Source: Geodermatophilus sp. DSM 44513 (GTDB lineage: Bacteria > Actinomycetota > Actinomycetes > Mycobacteriales > Geodermatophilaceae). Taken from it: DNA of 64,000 nucleotides. Position numbers and translations under genes: made by a program. Location: the NCBI RefSeq assembly GCF_032460525.1, contig NZ_CP135963.1, positions 62,001 to 126,000 of the forward strand, read 5' to 3'. Position 1 is the stretch's first letter. Every line of letters starts with the position of its first letter. Below, piece after piece: positions 15,295 through 43,294 of the stretch. A model generated the notes under the pieces. It saw only the letters and a list, made by a program, of their open reading frames with translations. It was not told where the DNA came from and made no database searches.

Positions 15295-15717
15295 TCAGGG
15301 GGCGAGCACGGCCCAGACGTGCTTGGCCCCGGCACTGACGTACCAACCGTGCTCGACGGCCAGCTCGGCGATCAGGTACAGCCCGAGCCCGCCCTCACTG
15401 GGGTCGCGGCCGACCGCGGGCGTCGGCGGGGAGCCGGGCGCGCCGTCGCAGACCTCGACCAGCCAGCGGTCGGCCACGGGGCGCACCGAGGCGCGCACCT
15501 CCCCGCCGCCGTGCCGCAGCGCGTTCGAGGCCATCTCGTCGAGGGCCAGCACGAGCCGGTCGCACAGGTCGGCGGACCGCGGACCGCCGAGGTGCGCCCG
15601 CACCTCGGCGCGGACCTGGGGCAGCTCGGCCACGGTGCCCAGGCGCCACGCGAGGTGCTCGGGGGCCACCGGCGGCCGTGCGGACGGCCACAGCTGCCGG
15701 GCCGCCTCGCCTGTCAC
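15295..15717 (-). CDS. ATP-binding protein, RsbW/SpoIIAB-like (HATPase_c_2)
   Basis: A 140-residue GHKL ATPase. N-box LALDEMASNALRHGGGEVRA, then VEVCDGAPG, and G-box GGLGLYLIAELAVEHGW with the tail GAKHVWAVLAP. It is a clear paralogue of the 9937-10431 protein and probably regulates a sigma factor or STAS partner by binding or phosphorylation. GTG 15717 gives the same distance from start to first helix as in the paralogue. It stands alone between a gene desert and the thiamine operon, so its partner must be encoded elsewhere. Confidence 0.8.
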   Translation of the reverse strand: MTGEAARQLWPSARPPVAPEHLAWRLGTVAELPQVRAEVRAHLGGPRSADLCDRLVLALDEMASNALRHGGGEVRASVRPVADRWLVEVCDGAPGSPPTPAVGRDPSEGGLGLYLIAELAVEHGWYVSAGAKHVWAVLAP

Positions 15718-32460: not shown

Positions 32461-35400
32461 GTGACCGACGATGACCGGAACGGCGCGGTGAGCGACGAGG
32501 TCCCTGTGGGGTCACTGTTCGCCGGGGGTGGCGAGGTGGGCCGCGCGATGGCCGCGGTCGACTGGGCGCGGACCCCGCTCGGCCCGCCGGAGCGGTGGCC
32601 CTCCGGGCTGCGCCACACCGTCCGCATCCTGCTGACGTCGCGCTTCGCGATGTGGGCCGGCTGGGGCCCGGAGCTGCGGTTCTTCTACAACGACGCCTAC
32701 CGGCACGACACGCTGCAGGCCAAGCACCCGTGGGCGCTGGGCCGCCCCGCGTCGGAGGTGTGGGCCGAGATCTGGCCCGACATCGCCCCGCGCACCCAGG
32801 CGGTGCTGCAGGACGGCGCCGCCACCTGGGACCAGGACCTGCTGCTGTTCCTGGAGCGCAGCGGCTACCCGGAGGAGACCTACCACACCTTCTCCTACAG
32901 CCCGCTGCCCGACGACGACGGCGGCACCGGCGGCCTGTTCTGCGTGGTCACCGAGACCACCCAGCAGGTCGTCGGCGAGCGGCGGATGGCCACGCTGCGC
33001 GACCTCGCCGCGGCCGTCGGGGCCGCGCGCACCGAGGCCGGTGTGCTCGCCGCCGTCGAGGAGCAGCTCGCCGGCAACCCCGCCGACCTGCCGTTCGCCG
33101 CCGTCTACCTGGTGGACGACGGCAGCGCCCGGCTGCGCTGCGCCTCCGGTCTGGGGCCCGGGTCCGCGGTGCCGTCGGTGGTGACCCCGGGCGGGCGCTA
33201 CGACGTGCCGCTGCGGCGCCTGCTGGCCGGCGAGGACGTCGTCGTCGACGACCTGGGCCGGTACCGCCCGGGCCTGCCGACCGGCGCCTGGGACGTGCCG
33301 CCGGTGCAGGCGGTCGCGCTGCCGATCGCCTCCTCCGCGCAGGACCGCGGGCCGGTCGCCGGCTTCCTGGTGGTGGGGCTGAACCCGCACCGCCGCTGGG
33401 ACGACGCCTACCGCGACTTCCTCGGCCTGGTGGCCAGCCAGGTCTCGGCCGCGCTGGCCAACGCCGGCAGCTACGAGGCCGAGCGGCGGCGGGCCGAGGC
33501 GCTGGCGGAGCTGGACCGCGCCAAGACCGACTTCTTCAGCAACGTCAGCCACGAGTTCCGCACCCCGCTGACGCTCATCGCCGGGCCGGTCGCCGAGCTG
33601 CGCGCCTCCCCGGCGGTCACGGCCGACCCCCAGCTGGCCGAGGAGCTGGAGGTGGTCGAGCGCAACGCGCAGCGGCTGCGCAAGCTGGTCGACACCCTGC
33701 TGGACTTCTCCCGCATCCAGGCCGGCCGGATCGACGCCCGCTTCGAGCCGGTCGACCTCGCCGCCACCACCACCGAGCTGGCCAGCGTCTTCCGCTCGGC
33801 CGTCGTCCGGGCGGGGCTGGACTACACCGTCGACTGCCCGCCGCTGGGCGCGCCGGTGCACGTCGACCGGGACATGTGGGAGAAGGTCGTGCTCAACCTG
33901 CTGTCCAACGCGCTGAAGTTCACCCCCACCGGCGGCATCACGGTGCGGCTGCGGCCGCAGGACGGCGGCGCGCGGCTCACCGTCAGCGACACCGGCACCG
34001 GCATCCCGGCCGAGGAGCTGCCCCGGCTGTTCGAGCGCTTCCACCGCGTCGCCGACGCCCGCGGCCGCTCCGGGGAGGGCAGCGGCATCGGCCTGGCGAT
34101 GGTCCGCGAGCTGGTCGGCCTGCACGGCGGGACGGTCGGCGTCGAGAGCACCCCCGGGGCCGGGACGACGTTCACCGTCACCCTGCCGTCGGGCACCGGG
34201 CACCTGCCGGCCGACCAGCTGGCCGGGCCCGCCGGCGCACCGGCCGTGTCCCCGGCCGCCGCGCCGTTCGTCACCGAGGCGCTGCGGTGGCTGCCCGAGG
34301 ACGACGGCGACGAGCCCGTGCCGCCGCCCCGCGACGCGGCGGCACCCACCGGGCGGGTGCTGGTCGCCGACGACAACGCCGACATGCGCGGCTACCTGCG
34401 GCGGCTGCTGGCCCCGCACTACGACGTCCGGACCGTGTCCGACGGGCGGCAGGCGCTGGACGCGGCGCTGGCCGACCCGCCGGACCTCCTGGTCAGCGAC
34501 GTGATGATGCCGGAGCTGGACGGCATGGGGCTGCTGGCCGCGCTGCGCGCCGAACCGCGCACCGCGCGGGTCCCGGTGGTGCTGCTGTCCGCGCGGGCCG
34601 GTGAGGAGGCCGCCGTCGAGGGCCTCGCCGCCGGGGCGGACGACTACCTGGTCAAGCCGTTCTCCGCCCAGGAGCTGCTCGCCCGGGTCAGCGCCCACCT
34701 GCAGCTCGGCCGGGCCCGGCGGGCCGCGGAGGAGCAGTTCACCGCGATGGCCGACCTGGCCCCCGCGCTGATCTGGGTGGCCGACCGCGACGGGCGCCGG
34801 GTGTTCGTCAACCGCGGCTGGACGGAGTTCACCGGCCGCCCGGCGCGCGAGGAGGTCGGCGACGGCTGGGTGCAGGGGGTCCACCCGGACGACCGGGACC
34901 GCTACGGCGCGGTCGTCGCCGCGGCCACCGCGCGCCGCGGGGGCTGGGAGGTCGACGTCCGGCTGCGGCGCGCCGACGGCGCCTACCACTGGGTGCTGGA
35001 GCGCGCCGCCCCGATCGGGGCGGGCGAGACGTTCGCCGGGTACGTGGGCAGCTGCACCGACATCAACGCGCGCACCCGGGAGACGGCCCGGCAGGCGCTG
35101 CTCGCCGAGGTGGGCACCGCGCTGGACCGGCAGGCCGCCGTGGAGGGCCAGACCGGCGCCCTGGCCCGCCTGCTGGTCGACCGGCGGCTGGCCGAGCTGT
35201 GCACCATCCGCCTCGTCGGCGAGGACGGCGGGCTGGAGTGGGCCGCCGTCGCCGCGGCCGACGAGGACGCCGCGGCCGCGCTGGCCGCGACCGACCCGGC
35301 GATCGGCGCCGCCCCGCACGTGGTCCGGACGGGTATGCCGGTGCTCTACCCGACCGGGCTGCCGGACGCGGTCGACGACCTGCCGCCCGTCGCCCGGGCG

Positions 35401-37593
35401 CTGCCGGTCGCCTCGCTGCTGGTGCTGCCGCTGAGCGCGCGGGGCCGGGTGCTGGCCGTCCTGGCCCTGGGCCGGCGGGACGACGCGCCGCCGTTCACCG
35501 AGGACGACCGGGAGCTGCTCGAGGAGGTGGCCGCCCGCGCGGCGCTGGCCGTGGACAACGCGCTGCTGCTGGCCGAGGAGCGCGCCGCCGCCCGCCGGCT
35601 GGTGCTGCTGCAGCGGGTCACCGCGGAGCTGTCGGCCGCGACCACCCCGGCCGAGGTCGCACGGGCCGCCGTCGAGCACCTGCGCGCGGTGAGCGGGCCG
35701 GACAGCTGGGTGGCCGTGCACGAGCTGGACGCCACGCACCGTGCGCTCACCGCGTTGGCCGTCGACGGCCCGGACGAGGTCGCCCGGCGGGCGTGGCAGA
35801 CCGTGCCCCTGACGGCGCCCACGCCCACGACCACGGCGGTCACCGAGGGCCGTCCGGTGTGGCTGCCCGACGTCGGCGCGGCGCCGGCCCCGGACGGGGA
35901 CCGGCTGCCACCCGAGCTCGCCGAGGCGGTGCGCGCCTCCGGCATGCCGTCGGTCGCCGCGCTGCCGCTCACCGTGGCCGGCCGGCCGGTCGGCGTCCTG
36001 TCCCTGGCCTGGTCGGCCGTGCAGCGGTTCCTCCCCGGTGAGCGGACGATGCTGCTCGCCGTCGCCGAGCAGTGCGCGCAGGCCCTGGACCGCGCCCGGC
36101 TCTACCGCGCCGAGCGGGGGATCGCCGAGACGCTGCAGCGCAGCCTGCTGCCCGCGCAGCTGCCGGCGCTGGAGCGGCTGGCGCTGGCCGCGCACTACCT
36201 GCCCGGTGCCGAGGGCGCCCAGGCCGGCGGGGACTGGTACGACGTCGTGGAGCTGGCCGGCGGCCGGGTGGCGATCGCGGTGGGCGACGTCGTCGGGCAG
36301 GGACCGGCGGCCGCCGCGGTCATGGGCCAGCTGCGCAGCGCGCTGTCCACCGCCCTGCTGCAGGGCTGCGGCCCGGCGGAGGCCCTGGAGCTGCTGGACC
36401 GCTTCGCCGCCCGGCTGCCGGGCGCGCTGGCCTCCACCGCCGCCTGCCTGGTCGTCGACGGCGCGGCCGGCACGGTCCGCTGGGCGCGCGCCGGGCACCC
36501 GCCGGCCCTGCTCGTCACCGCGGCCGGCGCGCGGCTGCTCGACGGGGCCGGGTCCGGGACCGTGCTCGGCGTGACCGGCCGGCGTCCCCACACCGAGGGC
36601 ACGGCCGCCGTCACGGCCGGGGACACCCTGCTGCTCTACACCGACGGGCTGGTCGAGCGGCGCGGCGAGGTCCTCGACGACGGCCTGGAGCGCGTCCGGG
36701 CCGCCGCCGCGCGGCACGCCGCCGCCGACCCCGCGGTGCTGACCGGGCACCTGCTCACCGAGGTCCTCGCCGACGCCTCCCAGCCCGACGACGTCGCGCT
36801 GATCGCCGCCCGGCTGCTGCCCGAGCCCCTGGTCGCGCGGGTGCCGGCCGACCCGCGGCGGCTGTCCGGGGTCCGGCGGGCGGTGACGGCGTGGGCGGCG
36901 CTGGCCGGTCTGCCCGCGGGCACCACCGAGGACCTGCAGCTCGCGCTGGGCGAGGCGCTGGCCAACGCCGTGGAGCACGCCTACGCCGCCTCCCCCGACG
37001 ACGGCGAGTGCCGCTGCACGGTGACCCGCGAGCCGGACGGCGGCGTGCGGGTGGAGGTGTGCGACACCGGGGCGTGGCGGCCCCCGCCGGCCGACCGCGG
37101 CCACCGCGGCCGCGGCCTGGAGATGATCAGCGCGCTGGCCTCCGACGTCGAGGTGGACCACCCCCCGGGGTCGGCCGGCACCACCGTGCGCTTCCGCATC
37201 GCCCCCGCCGTCCCGGGACCGCGGACCCCTCCCCGGCCCGGCCCGGCGGGCCCGGCCCCGGACGGGACTGCGGCGCTGAGCGTGCACGACGGGCCGGGCG
37301 GCCCGCGCCTGGCGCTGCTCGGCGAGGTCGACCTGGCCACCGTCGGCCCGGTGCGCCGGCAGCTGCTCAGCCACCTCGACGGGCTCGCCCCGGGGACGAC
37401 GGCCACCCTGGACCTCGGCGCCACCGGCTACCTGGCCAGCGCCGGCGTCGGGCTGGTGCTGGAGGCCGTGGCCCGGGCACGGGCGGCCGGCGTCGGGCTG
37501 CGCGTGCAGGCCCGGCCGGGCACGCCGCCGGCGCGGGTGCTGGCCCTCGCCGGGGTCGGCCACCGGGAGGTCCCGTCCCCGTCCACGCCGTAG
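32461..37593 (+). CDS. Single-chain hybrid histidine kinase with SpoIIE phosphatase, RsbW-like kinase and STAS domains
   Basis: A 1710-residue cytoplasmic protein. Domains in order: PAS (15-175), GAF (180-340), HisKA with NVSHEFRTP (H364), HATPase_c (463-581, NLLSNALKFTP), REC (634-750, phosphoacceptor D680 in VSDVMMPELDG), PAS (760-873), GAF (877-1043), GAF (1047-1217), SpoIIE/PP2C phosphatase (1220-1457; GGDWYDV with D1258, LLLYTDGLVE, QPDDVALIA with D1443-1444), HATPase_c_2 (1460-1584; LALGEALANAVEH, E1498 and N1502; GRGLEMI) and STAS (1604-1710). The STAS phosphosite Ser survives (S1660 in YLASAGVGL) but the usual preceding Asp is Ala. All catalytic residues I can check are present. Phosphorelay input, phosphatase, kinase and substrate of a partner switch are thus fused. 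GTG 32461 follows GAGGG; GTG 32488 is an alternative. A hairpin separates it from the MEDS-ATPase gene. Confidence 0.93.
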   Translation: MTDDDRNGAVSDEVPVGSLFAGGGEVGRAMAAVDWARTPLGPPERWPSGLRHTVRILLTSRFAMWAGWGPELRFFYNDAYRHDTLQAKHPWALGRPASEVWAEIWPDIAPRTQAVLQDGAATWDQDLLLFLERSGYPEETYHTFSYSPLPDDDGGTGGLFCVVTETTQQVVGERRMATLRDLAAAVGAARTEAGVLAAVEEQLAGNPADLPFAAVYLVDDGSARLRCASGLGPGSAVPSVVTPGGRYDVPLRRLLAGEDVVVDDLGRYRPGLPTGAWDVPPVQAVALPIASSAQDRGPVAGFLVVGLNPHRRWDDAYRDFLGLVASQVSAALANAGSYEAERRRAEALAELDRAKTDFFSNVSHEFRTPLTLIAGPVAELRASPAVTADPQLAEELEVVERNAQRLRKLVDTLLDFSRIQAGRIDARFEPVDLAATTTELASVFRSAVVRAGLDYTVDCPPLGAPVHVDRDMWEKVVLNLLSNALKFTPTGGITVRLRPQDGGARLTVSDTGTGIPAEELPRLFERFHRVADARGRSGEGSGIGLAMVRELVGLHGGTVGVESTPGAGTTFTVTLPSGTGHLPADQLAGPAGAPAVSPAAAPFVTEALRWLPEDDGDEPVPPPRDAAAPTGRVLVADDNADMRGYLRRLLAPHYDVRTVSDGRQALDAALADPPDLLVSDVMMPELDGMGLLAALRAEPRTARVPVVLLSARAGEEAAVEGLAAGADDYLVKPFSAQELLARVSAHLQLGRARRAAEEQFTAMADLAPALIWVADRDGRRVFVNRGWTEFTGRPAREEVGDGWVQGVHPDDRDRYGAVVAAATARRGGWEVDVRLRRADGAYHWVLERAAPIGAGETFAGYVGSCTDINARTRETARQALLAEVGTALDRQAAVEGQTGALARLLVDRRLAELCTIRLVGEDGGLEWAAVAAADEDAAAALAATDPAIGAAPHVVRTGMPVLYPTGLPDAVDDLPPVARALPVASLLVLPLSARGRVLAVLALGRRDDAPPFTEDDRELLEEVAARAALAVDNALLLAEERAAARRLVLLQRVTAELSAATTPAEVARAAVEHLRAVSGPDSWVAVHELDATHRALTALAVDGPDEVARRAWQTVPLTAPTPTTTAVTEGRPVWLPDVGAAPAPDGDRLPPELAEAVRASGMPSVAALPLTVAGRPVGVLSLAWSAVQRFLPGERTMLLAVAEQCAQALDRARLYRAERGIAETLQRSLLPAQLPALERLALAAHYLPGAEGAQAGGDWYDVVELAGGRVAIAVGDVVGQGPAAAAVMGQLRSALSTALLQGCGPAEALELLDRFAARLPGALASTAACLVVDGAAGTVRWARAGHPPALLVTAAGARLLDGAGSGTVLGVTGRRPHTEGTAAVTAGDTLLLYTDGLVERRGEVLDDGLERVRAAAARHAAADPAVLTGHLLTEVLADASQPDDVALIAARLLPEPLVARVPADPRRLSGVRRAVTAWAALAGLPAGTTEDLQLALGEALANAVEHAYAASPDDGECRCTVTREPDGGVRVEVCDTGAWRPPPADRGHRGRGLEMISALASDVEVDHPPGSAGTTVRFRIAPAVPGPRTPPRPGPAGPAPDGTAALSVHDGPGGPRLALLGEVDLATVGPVRRQLLSHLDGLAPGTTATLDLGATGYLASAGVGLVLEAVARARAAGVGLRVQARPGTPPARVLALAGVGHREVPSPSTP

Positions 37594-37708: not shown

Positions 37709-38665
37709 GTGGGTGCGCACGCGACCTCACCCCGGGCGGCCCACGCCGCCGCCGTCGTGGCGGGGGAGCGCGGGCTGCTGGCCGTGGCGCTGCCGTACAT
37801 CGACGCCGGGTTGCGCGCCGGGGACGTCGTCGCGCTGAGCTGCCCGCCGGACGTCGTGGCCGTGCTGTGCGGCGAGCTGGGCGAGCGCGCCGGGCGGGTC
37901 CGCGACGAACCCCGGCTGAGCCTGGTCGGCGCCCGGGCCCCCGACGCGATCGGCCACACCGACCGGCTGGTCCGGGAGCTGCCCGAGGGTGTCCGGCTGC
38001 GCGTCCTCTCCCTGGTGGACTCCGGGCCCGGCCCCGCCGACTGGCGCGAGGGGCTGCGCTTCGAGTCCGCGGTCAACCGGTTCGTGGTGGGTACCCCGGT
38101 CGAGGCCCTGTGCGTCTACGACCGCACCCGGCTGCCGGCCCCGGTGGTCGCGGCCGCCGCGGTCACGCACCCCGCGCTGGTGCACGACGGCGCGTGGGCG
38201 CCCAGCCCGGCGTACCGCGACCCCGCCGACTACCTGCCGCAGCTGCCCTGGCCGCGCGACCCGCTGCAGGACACCGCGCCGGTGCTCGCGCTGGACGACG
38301 TCCCCAGCCTGCGCGCCCTGCGCTCCCGCGTCGGCCGGGCCCTCGCCGAGCTGGTGCCCGACCCCGACCAGCGGGCGGACCTGCACCTGGCCGCCGCCGA
38401 GGTCGCCGCCAACGCCTTCCGGCACGGCGCCCGGCCGGTGTCGGTGCGGATCTGGACCGGAGGTCAGCGGCTGGTCTGCGCCATCACCGACGCGGGGCAC
38501 TCCTTCGCCGACCCGATGGCCGGGTTCCGACCCGCCCACGGCAGCGACCTCGGCCGCGGCGGCATGGGCCTGTGGCTGGCCCGCAAGCTGTGGGACTCCG
38601 TCGACCTGCTCCCCGGGCCCGACGGCCTCACCGTCCGGCTCGGCACCCGCCTGCAGCCTGCTTGA
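37709..38665 (+). CDS. MEDS sensor domain fused to RsbW-like ATPase
   Basis: A 318-residue protein. Residues 1-165 match the MEDS (DcmR-like sensory) domain: AVVAGERGLLAVALPYIDAGLRAGDVVALSCPP and LCVYDRTRLPAPVVAAAAVTHPALV. Residues 190-315 are a HATPase_c_2 domain with N-box LAAAEVAANAFRHG, CAITDAGHSF and GRGGMGLWLARKLWD. In actinobacteria this MEDS-ATPase architecture is common and thought to feed anti-sigma switching. GTG 37709 has GAGGAGG eight bases upstream. Its position behind the single-chain partner-switch protein makes that protein's STAS domain a possible substrate. Confidence 0.88.
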   Translation: MGAHATSPRAAHAAAVVAGERGLLAVALPYIDAGLRAGDVVALSCPPDVVAVLCGELGERAGRVRDEPRLSLVGARAPDAIGHTDRLVRELPEGVRLRVLSLVDSGPGPADWREGLRFESAVNRFVVGTPVEALCVYDRTRLPAPVVAAAAVTHPALVHDGAWAPSPAYRDPADYLPQLPWPRDPLQDTAPVLALDDVPSLRALRSRVGRALAELVPDPDQRADLHLAAAEVAANAFRHGARPVSVRIWTGGQRLVCAITDAGHSFADPMAGFRPAHGSDLGRGGMGLWLARKLWDSVDLLPGPDGLTVRLGTRLQPA

Positions 38666-41312: not shown

Positions 41313-43139
41313 TCAGGCGCCGGCGGGGACCGCGTCCACCGCGGCGGCCAGGTAGGCGCCCTTGCCGCCGCTCTTCACGCCGTACATGGCGGTGTCGGCG
41401 CGGTGCAGCAGGGTCTCCGGGGTGTCACCGGGCACGGCCCGCGCGCCGCCGATGCTGGCGGTGACGGTGAGGGTCCGGCCGGCCGCCTGCAGCGGGGCGC
41501 CCAGGTCGGCGGTCAGCCGGGCGGCCACCTCGTCGACCCGCTCCGCGGGGCCCGCGGCGAGCAGGACGGCGAACTCGTCCCCGCCCAGCCGGGCGACGGC
41601 GTCCCCCGCGCGGACGGCGTGCCGCAGCCGGCCGGCGACGGCGACCAGCACCTCGTCGCCGGCGGCGTGGCCCAGGGAGTCGTTGACCCGCTTGAAGTCG
41701 TCGAGGTCCACGAACAGCACCGCGGGGGCCCCGGCGGCGGGGACGGCCGCGGTGACGCGGGCCAGCCGGCGCAGGAACTCGGCGCGGTTGTGCAGCCCGG
41801 TCAGCGGGTCCGTGGCGGCGCGGTGGCGCAGCTCGCCCTCGAGCACCTTGCGGTCGGTGATCTCCCGCAGGTTGACCACCCAGCCGTCGACGCCGATCGC
41901 CGCGACCCGGTCGCTGACCTTGACCTCGACCCACCGGCCGGCGCCGGTGGTGTCGCGCAGCCGGACGTCCGCGTCCACGGGCCCGCCGCCCGGTGACCGG
42001 CGGACGGCCCGGCGCAGCCGGCCGCGCTGCCCGGCGTCGAGCAGGTCCAGCGCGCGGCGGCCGAGCAGGTCGCCGGGGGAGTGGCCCAACAGCTCGCGCA
42101 CGGCCGGGCTGACGTAGCTGATCCGCCCGTCGCCGTCGACGATGGCGATGACGTCCGCGGCGTTCTCCAGCAGCACCCGCAGCCGGGCCTCGCTGGCGGC
42201 CAGCGCGGTGCGCACCCGCTCGCGTTCGGCGGTGAGCCGGCCCAGCCGCCACAGCGCCAGCACGGTGAGCACCGCGGTACCGGCGGCCAGCCAGTAGCCG
42301 GTCCCGCCCTGCCGCAGCGTCCACAGCAACACCAGCGCCGGGGTGGCCAGCAGGGCGGTGCCCAGGCCGAACACCCGGCTCACCGTGACCGCGGAGCCGG
42401 GGTCGGCGCCGCGGCCGAGCACCGCCACCGACGGGTGCCGGGCGGCGAAGGCGGTGGCGACGACGGCGAACTCGGAGAGGGCCTCCACGAGGGGGGCGAC
42501 CTCGGCGTCCTGCGCGATCCGGATCGCGGTGCCGGCGAGGCCCAGGGTGCCGGAGAGCAGCAGGGCGATCCCGCTCGGCGAGCGCCCGCTGCCGACCACG
42601 GCCACGCGCACGCAGGCGACGAGCACGACGGCGGTGACCAGCGGCAGGCCGACCAGCAGCTCGGCGAGGCCGCGGTGGAGCTGCCGGCCCTCCGAGGTCA
42701 GGACGGTCACGGCCAGCGCGGCCACGAGCAGGAGGCTGCCGGTGTCCGCCCACGCGTCCCAGTCCCGCCGGCGCCGGCCGCCGGCCAGCGCGGTGAGCGC
42801 GGCCACCGTCACCCCCAGGTAGCCGGCCAGGTCCAGCCGGGCCTCCCACACCCCGGTCACGTCCGCGGCCACGCCGGCCTGCTCGAGGACCTGGGCGACG
42901 GCGCTGGCGCCCAGGGCGGCCAGCGCGACCGCGGTCACCCGCCAGGTCAGGAGGAGGACCGGGCGGTGCTCCCGCAGTGCGTACCGCACGGCCAGCAGGG
43001 CGAGCAGGTAGACGGCGACCTCCGTACCGGACCGCCAGGGCCCGGCCGGCAGGAGCAGACCGGCGGCCACCACCGCGGTGCCCGCGCCGGCGTACCGCCA
43101 GGGTGCGGTGACGACGGGGGAGGGGCGGGAGCTGCTCAC
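41313..43139 (-). CDS. Membrane PAS-GGDEF diguanylate cyclase
   Basis: A 608-residue protein with about nine to ten hydrophobic segments in residues 10-300, a PAS domain (about 320-440) and a GGDEF domain (445-605). GGDEF is intact (D521, ARLGGDEFAVLLA), DLDDFKRVNDSLGH and ADTAMYGVKSGGKG are typical, and RAGD five residues upstream gives an RxxD inhibitory site, so an active, product-inhibited c-di-GMP synthase is expected. The multi-TM sensor has no family name I recognise. GTG 43139 is chosen as the first start with plausible sequence after it. It complements the phosphodiesterase at 1390 in c-di-GMP turnover. Confidence 0.9.
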   Translation of the reverse strand: MSSSRPSPVVTAPWRYAGAGTAVVAAGLLLPAGPWRSGTEVAVYLLALLAVRYALREHRPVLLLTWRVTAVALAALGASAVAQVLEQAGVAADVTGVWEARLDLAGYLGVTVAALTALAGGRRRRDWDAWADTGSLLLVAALAVTVLTSEGRQLHRGLAELLVGLPLVTAVVLVACVRVAVVGSGRSPSGIALLLSGTLGLAGTAIRIAQDAEVAPLVEALSEFAVVATAFAARHPSVAVLGRGADPGSAVTVSRVFGLGTALLATPALVLLWTLRQGGTGYWLAAGTAVLTVLALWRLGRLTAERERVRTALAASEARLRVLLENAADVIAIVDGDGRISYVSPAVRELLGHSPGDLLGRRALDLLDAGQRGRLRRAVRRSPGGGPVDADVRLRDTTGAGRWVEVKVSDRVAAIGVDGWVVNLREITDRKVLEGELRHRAATDPLTGLHNRAEFLRRLARVTAAVPAAGAPAVLFVDLDDFKRVNDSLGHAAGDEVLVAVAGRLRHAVRAGDAVARLGGDEFAVLLAAGPAERVDEVAARLTADLGAPLQAAGRTLTVTASIGGARAVPGDTPETLLHRADTAMYGVKSGGKGAYLAAAVDAVPAGA

Positions 43140-43294
43140 ACCGACCCATCGGCACGGCCCTCCCGCAGCTGCACCCACCCGTCCCGGTGGCCTCACCCGT
43201 CCCGGTGACCCACCGGCCCCGCAGGTGACCCCCGGGGAGGTCCGGTTGGCCCCGGGGCCGCCGGGTACCGGGCGACCGAGACGAGGAGGTCACC

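Follow-up and report, generated by a model that had tools for sequence, protein, structure and literature searches.

Rv1364c of Mycobacterium tuberculosis carries a PAS domain, a PP2C phosphatase, a kinase and a STAS domain in a single chain, and its own STAS has been reported to be both phosphorylated and dephosphorylated, on a serine (PMC7693655, PMC9138534). HsbR of Pseudomonas aeruginosa and CrsR of Shewanella unite a receiver (REC) domain, a PP2C phosphatase and a kinase/anti-sigma domain (PMC6482189). In the RsfS-RsfR system of Mycobacterium smegmatis and the RsbK-RsbY system of Bacillus cereus, a histidine kinase governs a REC-PP2C phosphatase which acts on an anti-anti-sigma factor (PMC10950880, PMC7522486). 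Here we analyze a 64,000-nucleotide stretch of the soil actinobacterium Geodermatophilus sp. DSM 44513 (the window; positions 62001-126000 of the single contig, C1, of a genome of 4,628,844 bases), in which one gene (32461..37593, + strand) encodes a hybrid histidine kinase together with a phosphatase, an RsbW-like kinase and a STAS domain.

Domain layout and conservation of the fused protein

The gene is a single open frame of 1710 codons that starts at a GTG, either at 32461 or at 32506. Pfam scans of the translated gene bore out the domain order given in an initial annotation of this DNA, PAS-GAF-HisKA-HATPase-REC-PAS-GAF-GAF-SpoIIE-HATPase_c_2-STAS. The N-terminal PAS (PAS_4, residues 69-170, 32665..32970; 31.9 bits, cut-off 23.1) and the first GAF (GAF_2, residues 195-332, 33043..33456; 32.1 bits, cut-off 28.6) exceed their cut-offs when the N-terminal piece is scanned by itself. 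They are followed, on the same + strand, by HisKA (residues 354-422, 33520..33726; H364 at 33550-33552), the histidine-kinase ATPase domain (residues 469-577, 33865..34191), REC (residues 633-743, 34357..34689; D680 at 34498-34500), a second PAS (residues 759-872, 34735..35076) and two further GAF domains (residues 909-1032, 35185..35556, and about 1060-1210, 35638..36090). The Pfam match of the SpoIIE/PP2C phosphatase covers residues 1267-1452 (36259..36816, 142.7 bits); a conserved GGDWYD begins ahead of it at residue 1256, and the phosphatase aspartates 1258, 1276, 1395 and 1444 are presumably those of the metal site. The RsbW-like kinase (HATPase_c_2, residues 1461-1579, 36841..37197, 113.5 bits) bears E1498, N1502 and D1535, and the STAS domain (residues 1617-1699, 37309..37557; S1660 at 37438-37440) is recognized both by STAS_2 (34.7 bits, cut-off 29.2) and by predicted folds. 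For the phosphatase-kinase tandem the best match in the PDB is Rv1364c, by sequence and by fold. A single chain therefore contains a hybrid histidine kinase set (HisKA His, HATPase_c and REC Asp) and a PP2C phosphatase, RsbW-type kinase and STAS in the Rv1364c order, with the phosphatase aspartates, the kinase E, N and D and the STAS serine all intact; for the roles of the individual catalytic residues we assume those of their families.

About 5.8 billion proteins were searched, scoring being confined to the 7985 candidates with the most words in common with the query. Of these, 2457 matched at E <= 1e-10; the best 120 were listed, and 119 were aligned once the protein itself (P0002) was left out. 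All eleven residues checked (H364, D680, D1258, D1276, D1395, D1444, E1498, N1502, D1535, G1552 and S1660) are kept in 110 of the 119. The departures in the other nine are all gaps, with no checked residue substituted; judged from lengths and ends, P0065, P0091, P0092 and P0094 look like fragments whereas P0083, P0084, P0085, P0087 and P0093 stop after the kinase domain. By column, H364 is His in 118 homologues (one gap), D680 is Asp in 119, and the four phosphatase aspartates are kept in 119, 119, 119 and 118. E1498 and N1502 are each found in 118 and D1535 in 117, the remainder being gaps, and S1660 is Ser in every homologue that has the column (111, with 8 gaps). Among the matches listed, the top named one is from Geodermatophilus pulveris (84% identity), and the named sources are Geodermatophilus, Blastococcus, Modestobacter, Trujillonella, Actinomycetospora and Pseudonocardia; many rows are metagenome proteins. 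Since homologues of similar length and domain plan fill the match list and 110 keep every checked residue, the frameshift or assembly error that might have joined two genes is ruled out. The protein is a member of a real, conserved family with intact residues. A mark of this family is Q1280 (36298-36300) in the phosphatase motif GDVVGQG, which is Gln in 118 of the 119 homologues and His in one, as it is in Rv1364c.

The STAS domain in fused and split loci

By our count, the SpoIIE profile matches a kinase-fused or related chain in 45 loci. A STAS match lies in the same frame in 37 of them, in a separate frame just behind in six, and nowhere in two, L038 and L006, the latter truncated where its contig ends. 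In the split loci (L032, L039, L063, L068, L075 and L077) the STAS frame overlaps the kinase stop codon in another reading frame, if the first nearby start of the STAS frame is assumed; the STAS was identified by Pfam in L032 and L075 and by a profile built from the fused STAS in the other four. Because L068 and L077 are nearly identical in sequence, the independent split cases number at most five. In 36 fused loci 24-47 residues separate the STAS from the kinase profile match that precedes it. In a tree of 43 sequences rooted on one paralogue, the 36 fused sequences belong to a 38-member group with support 0.83, whose other two members are one split and one STAS-less sequence, and five split sequences lie outside it, a topology that suggests a direction for the fusion. 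That the same pair occurs both fused and split speaks strongly for the STAS belonging to its phosphatase-kinase, and it is very probably the module's own cognate substrate. Two other arrangements were observed at these loci: in Kutzneria the split genes for kinase and STAS have a STAS-HATPase_c_2 gene (L032:13942-14880, +) nearby, and in Pseudonocardia hydrocarbonoxydans the fused protein is directly followed by a second large one (L046:12913-15948, +) that matches the SpoIIE and kinase profiles.

S1660 aligns with the SpoIIAA site, which is Ser in chain 1th8 and Ala in 1tid; the alignment shows just Ala for Ser, and we take 1tid to be SpoIIAA with the Ser58Ala mutation. The initial annotation had singled out the Ala that replaces Asp before this serine as the exception among the key residues. 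Yet Ala is the rule of the family (residue 1659 is Ala in 100 of the 119 homologues and Pro in 11, with 8 gaps), and a STAS degenerate on account of A1659 is ruled out. In a second alignment (A2, 23 rows) the serine is invariant, and the residue before it is Ala in 13, Pro in three and Gly in one of the 17 fused rows, against Asp in five and Gly in one of the six separate STAS proteins. Asp is not universal in such antagonists, since Gly precedes the serine in RsfB (8ih8) and in a related mycobacterial antagonist (4qtp), and P0122, a fused paralogue from the same genome, reads S-S-A-A by eye at the STAS motif. Replacement of the Asp appears to accompany STAS fusion in this sample, a correlation only, because the sample is small and its members are related.

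A candidate output through RsbA and its rivals

The domains, the intact residues, the predicted folds, the family-wide conservation, the split-gene equivalents and, in one family, an RsbA neighbor form the firm basis for reading the protein as a hybrid histidine kinase with several sensor domains that delivers its output through a partner switch of the Rv1364c type, built into the chain and signaling to RsbA, which we consider the probable, though by no means certain, interpretation. From these features and from published analogues we infer the chemical steps, the helix and its role, and the partners. The PAS and GAF domains would set the autophosphorylation of H364, whose phosphate would pass to D680 on REC. 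By way of the PAS-GAF-GAF relay and a helix that precedes the phosphatase, REC may then shift the relative activities of SpoIIE phosphatase and RsbW-like kinase; these two would have opposite effects on S1660 in the tethered STAS, presumably in cis and not in trans between the chains of a dimer. Unphosphorylated STAS would bind an anti-sigma factor, most likely the adjacent RsbA-family protein, and this capture would free a SigB/F-type sigma factor. Published precedents supply each piece: the self-acting STAS, the REC-controlled phosphatase and a helical linker, which dimerizes and activates such phosphatases (PMC12143880).

The proposed reader of the STAS, an RsbA-family anti-sigma factor (MEDS plus HATPase_c_2; 37709..38665, +), scores 222.4 bits with NF041045 (cut-off 210) and is one of three RsbA-family matches over the cut-off in the genome. 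In Streptomyces coelicolor, RsbA has been reported as an anti-sigma factor acting on SigB (PMC8346170). In Geodermatophilaceae a homologue stands on the same strand behind the fused gene in all 22 loci with enough sequence beyond that gene; L006 ends too early. The initial annotation had the switch read by an outside sigma factor; an outside reader is retained in this refined form, but the conserved neighbor is an anti-sigma factor, and no sigma factor was found among the ten neighboring open reading frames (ORFs) scanned. In L004 a 281-aa gene lies between rsbA and marR; it was the only such gene scanned, and was rejected as a sigma gene, being of the NmrA/NAD-binding type. A 10-bp stem lies between the kinase gene and rsbA, but a terminator was not supported there as the folding energy is ordinary (z -0.68, for the folding energy and not the stem); the best stems in 22 relatives are for the most part no stronger than in shuffled sequence, with L014 and L026 departing furthest from this. 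In two of 17 other actinobacterial loci tblastn placed an RsbA homologue upstream, together with a MEDS-STAS gene. In Pseudonocardia loci (L035:5170-6947 and L036:5167-6866) a MEDS-STAS gene and a MEDS-HATPase_c_2 gene lie upstream of that for the fused kinase, so that the genes for the two sides of a partner switch have a sensor domain in common. Elsewhere in the window a stand-alone 140-aa RsbW-like HATPase_c_2 protein (15295-15717, -) may be a further anti-sigma kinase, and a PAS-GGDEF protein near the locus (41313-43196, -) is likely a diguanylate cyclase.

Several observations weigh against an output through RsbA and a self-acting STAS. In the other 15 of those 17 actinobacterial loci tblastn gave no RsbA homologue, although some contigs are short. 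The Geodermatophilaceae loci also keep marR and a ligase gene (21/23 each); because these nearby genes are common to the loci as well, the RsbA neighborhood is weak evidence, supporting and not decisive. Five of the 119 listed homologues seem to end naturally without a STAS, L038 is without kinase and STAS profile matches, and the second protein of P. hydrocarbonoxydans has no STAS match in its frame. The title of one paper reportedly announces the loss of kinase activity in Rv1364c, so that the kinase step is disputed even there. The precedents also conflict on sign: phosphorylation of REC lowers the activity of RsfR (PMC10950880) and raises that of HsbR and RsbY (PMC6482189, PMC7522486), and because of this disagreement the sign of receiver phosphorylation is not predicted here.

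The chain itself might instead be the anti-sigma factor, its RsbW-like domain holding the sigma factor until the unphosphorylated tethered STAS docks and evicts it, with RsbA as a separate system. The reported interactions of Rv1364c with SigF (PMC7693655) and of HsbR and CrsR with RpoS (PMC6482189) speak for this, as do the loci where no RsbA homologue was found. However, none of the eight SigBFG matches of the genome falls within the window, where the ten ORFs also gave no sigma factor, and the one match over the cut-off (C1:2616325) lies some 2.5 Mb from it by record coordinates, next to an RsbW-like gene and the Rv1364c-like P0122; we regard this alternative as unlikely. About equally doubtful is a stricter version of the RsbA output, in which a full phosphorelay and partner switch reside within a single molecule or a homodimer, the STAS stays in place throughout and is modified solely in its own chain, the Asp or Gly before the serine was lost owing to tethering, insulating it from the 11 other STAS_2 matches of the genome, and RsbA is the sole reader; if true, phosphohistidine and phosphoserine signaling would be covalently joined. 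Somewhat less plausible again is that the phosphatase and kinase act mainly in trans on free STAS proteins, the attached STAS being a regulatory or docking module. Cross-talk is possible because the genome has 16 SpoIIE and 12 STAS_2 matches (counting that of the fused protein), and some homologues lack a STAS, but the invariance of S1660 and the STAS frame that split relatives carry at the junction argue for the attached domain as substrate. That the histidine kinase and the partner switch are uncoupled halves, with the REC phosphate going to a separate histidine phosphotransferase, is very improbable: the N-terminal 345 residues do match loci of Alphaproteobacteria and other phyla (about 35-54% identity) that gave no match to the SpoIIE profile, but Geodermatophilus, Blastococcus, Actinomycetospora and Pseudonocardia retain the join, with all checked residues intact in 110 of the 119 homologues, and by match ranges so do the split-STAS relatives.

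Comparison with known systems

Within the same genome, P0122 (687 aa, L110:5328-7391, -; C1:2613327-2615390) resembles the fused protein in having its STAS joined to SpoIIE-HATPase_c_2, with 36% identity over phosphatase and kinase, but Pfam found no histidine kinase or REC in it at E 0.001. Its gene is divergent from the RsbW-like gene and the SigBFG gene. By sequence, this genome appears to have two such regulators, an Rv1364c-like one at a SigB/F-type locus and the larger, kinase-fused one.

A paper by de Been and others (2011) is said to treat hybrid histidine kinases in SigB regulation. A histidine kinase-REC-SpoIIE-HATPase-STAS chain was not described in the literature searched by titles and abstract openings. 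RsfSR and RsbKY divide kinase, phosphatase and STAS among separate proteins, and the accessible parts of the two sources do not mention an RsbW domain on the phosphatase (PMC10950880, PMC7522486), whereas the fused protein has its histidine kinase and REC-phosphatase in the same chain. HsbR and CrsR leave the STAS (HsbA, CrsA) as a separate protein, and HsbR receives its phosphate from separate kinases via HptB (PMC6482189); in the fused protein the STAS is attached, and PAS and GAF domains sit between REC and PP2C. If the proposed route is true, two bacterial phosphate codes, His-Asp and Ser-on-STAS, are joined in a single chain, which makes it a ready system for asking how, and in which direction, a receiver sets the PP2C/RsbW balance, and, with fused and split forms both occurring in nature, the tethering can be tested.

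Rv1364c shares with the fused protein the phosphatase, kinase and STAS in the same order in one chain, but has 653 aa and one PAS, and a histidine kinase or receiver is not described for it in the accessible text of PMC9138534. The partner switch in one polypeptide, presented as unusual in the initial annotation, is not itself new, since Rv1364c already is a sensor-PP2C-kinase-STAS chain, and one reported to act on itself. The new part of this variant, which is not categorically new, is the hybrid histidine kinase joined to that known switch. While Rv1364c is restricted to pathogenic mycobacteria according to a review (PMC9138534), phosphatase-kinase-STAS chains of its plan occur beyond them, in Geodermatophilus and its relatives.
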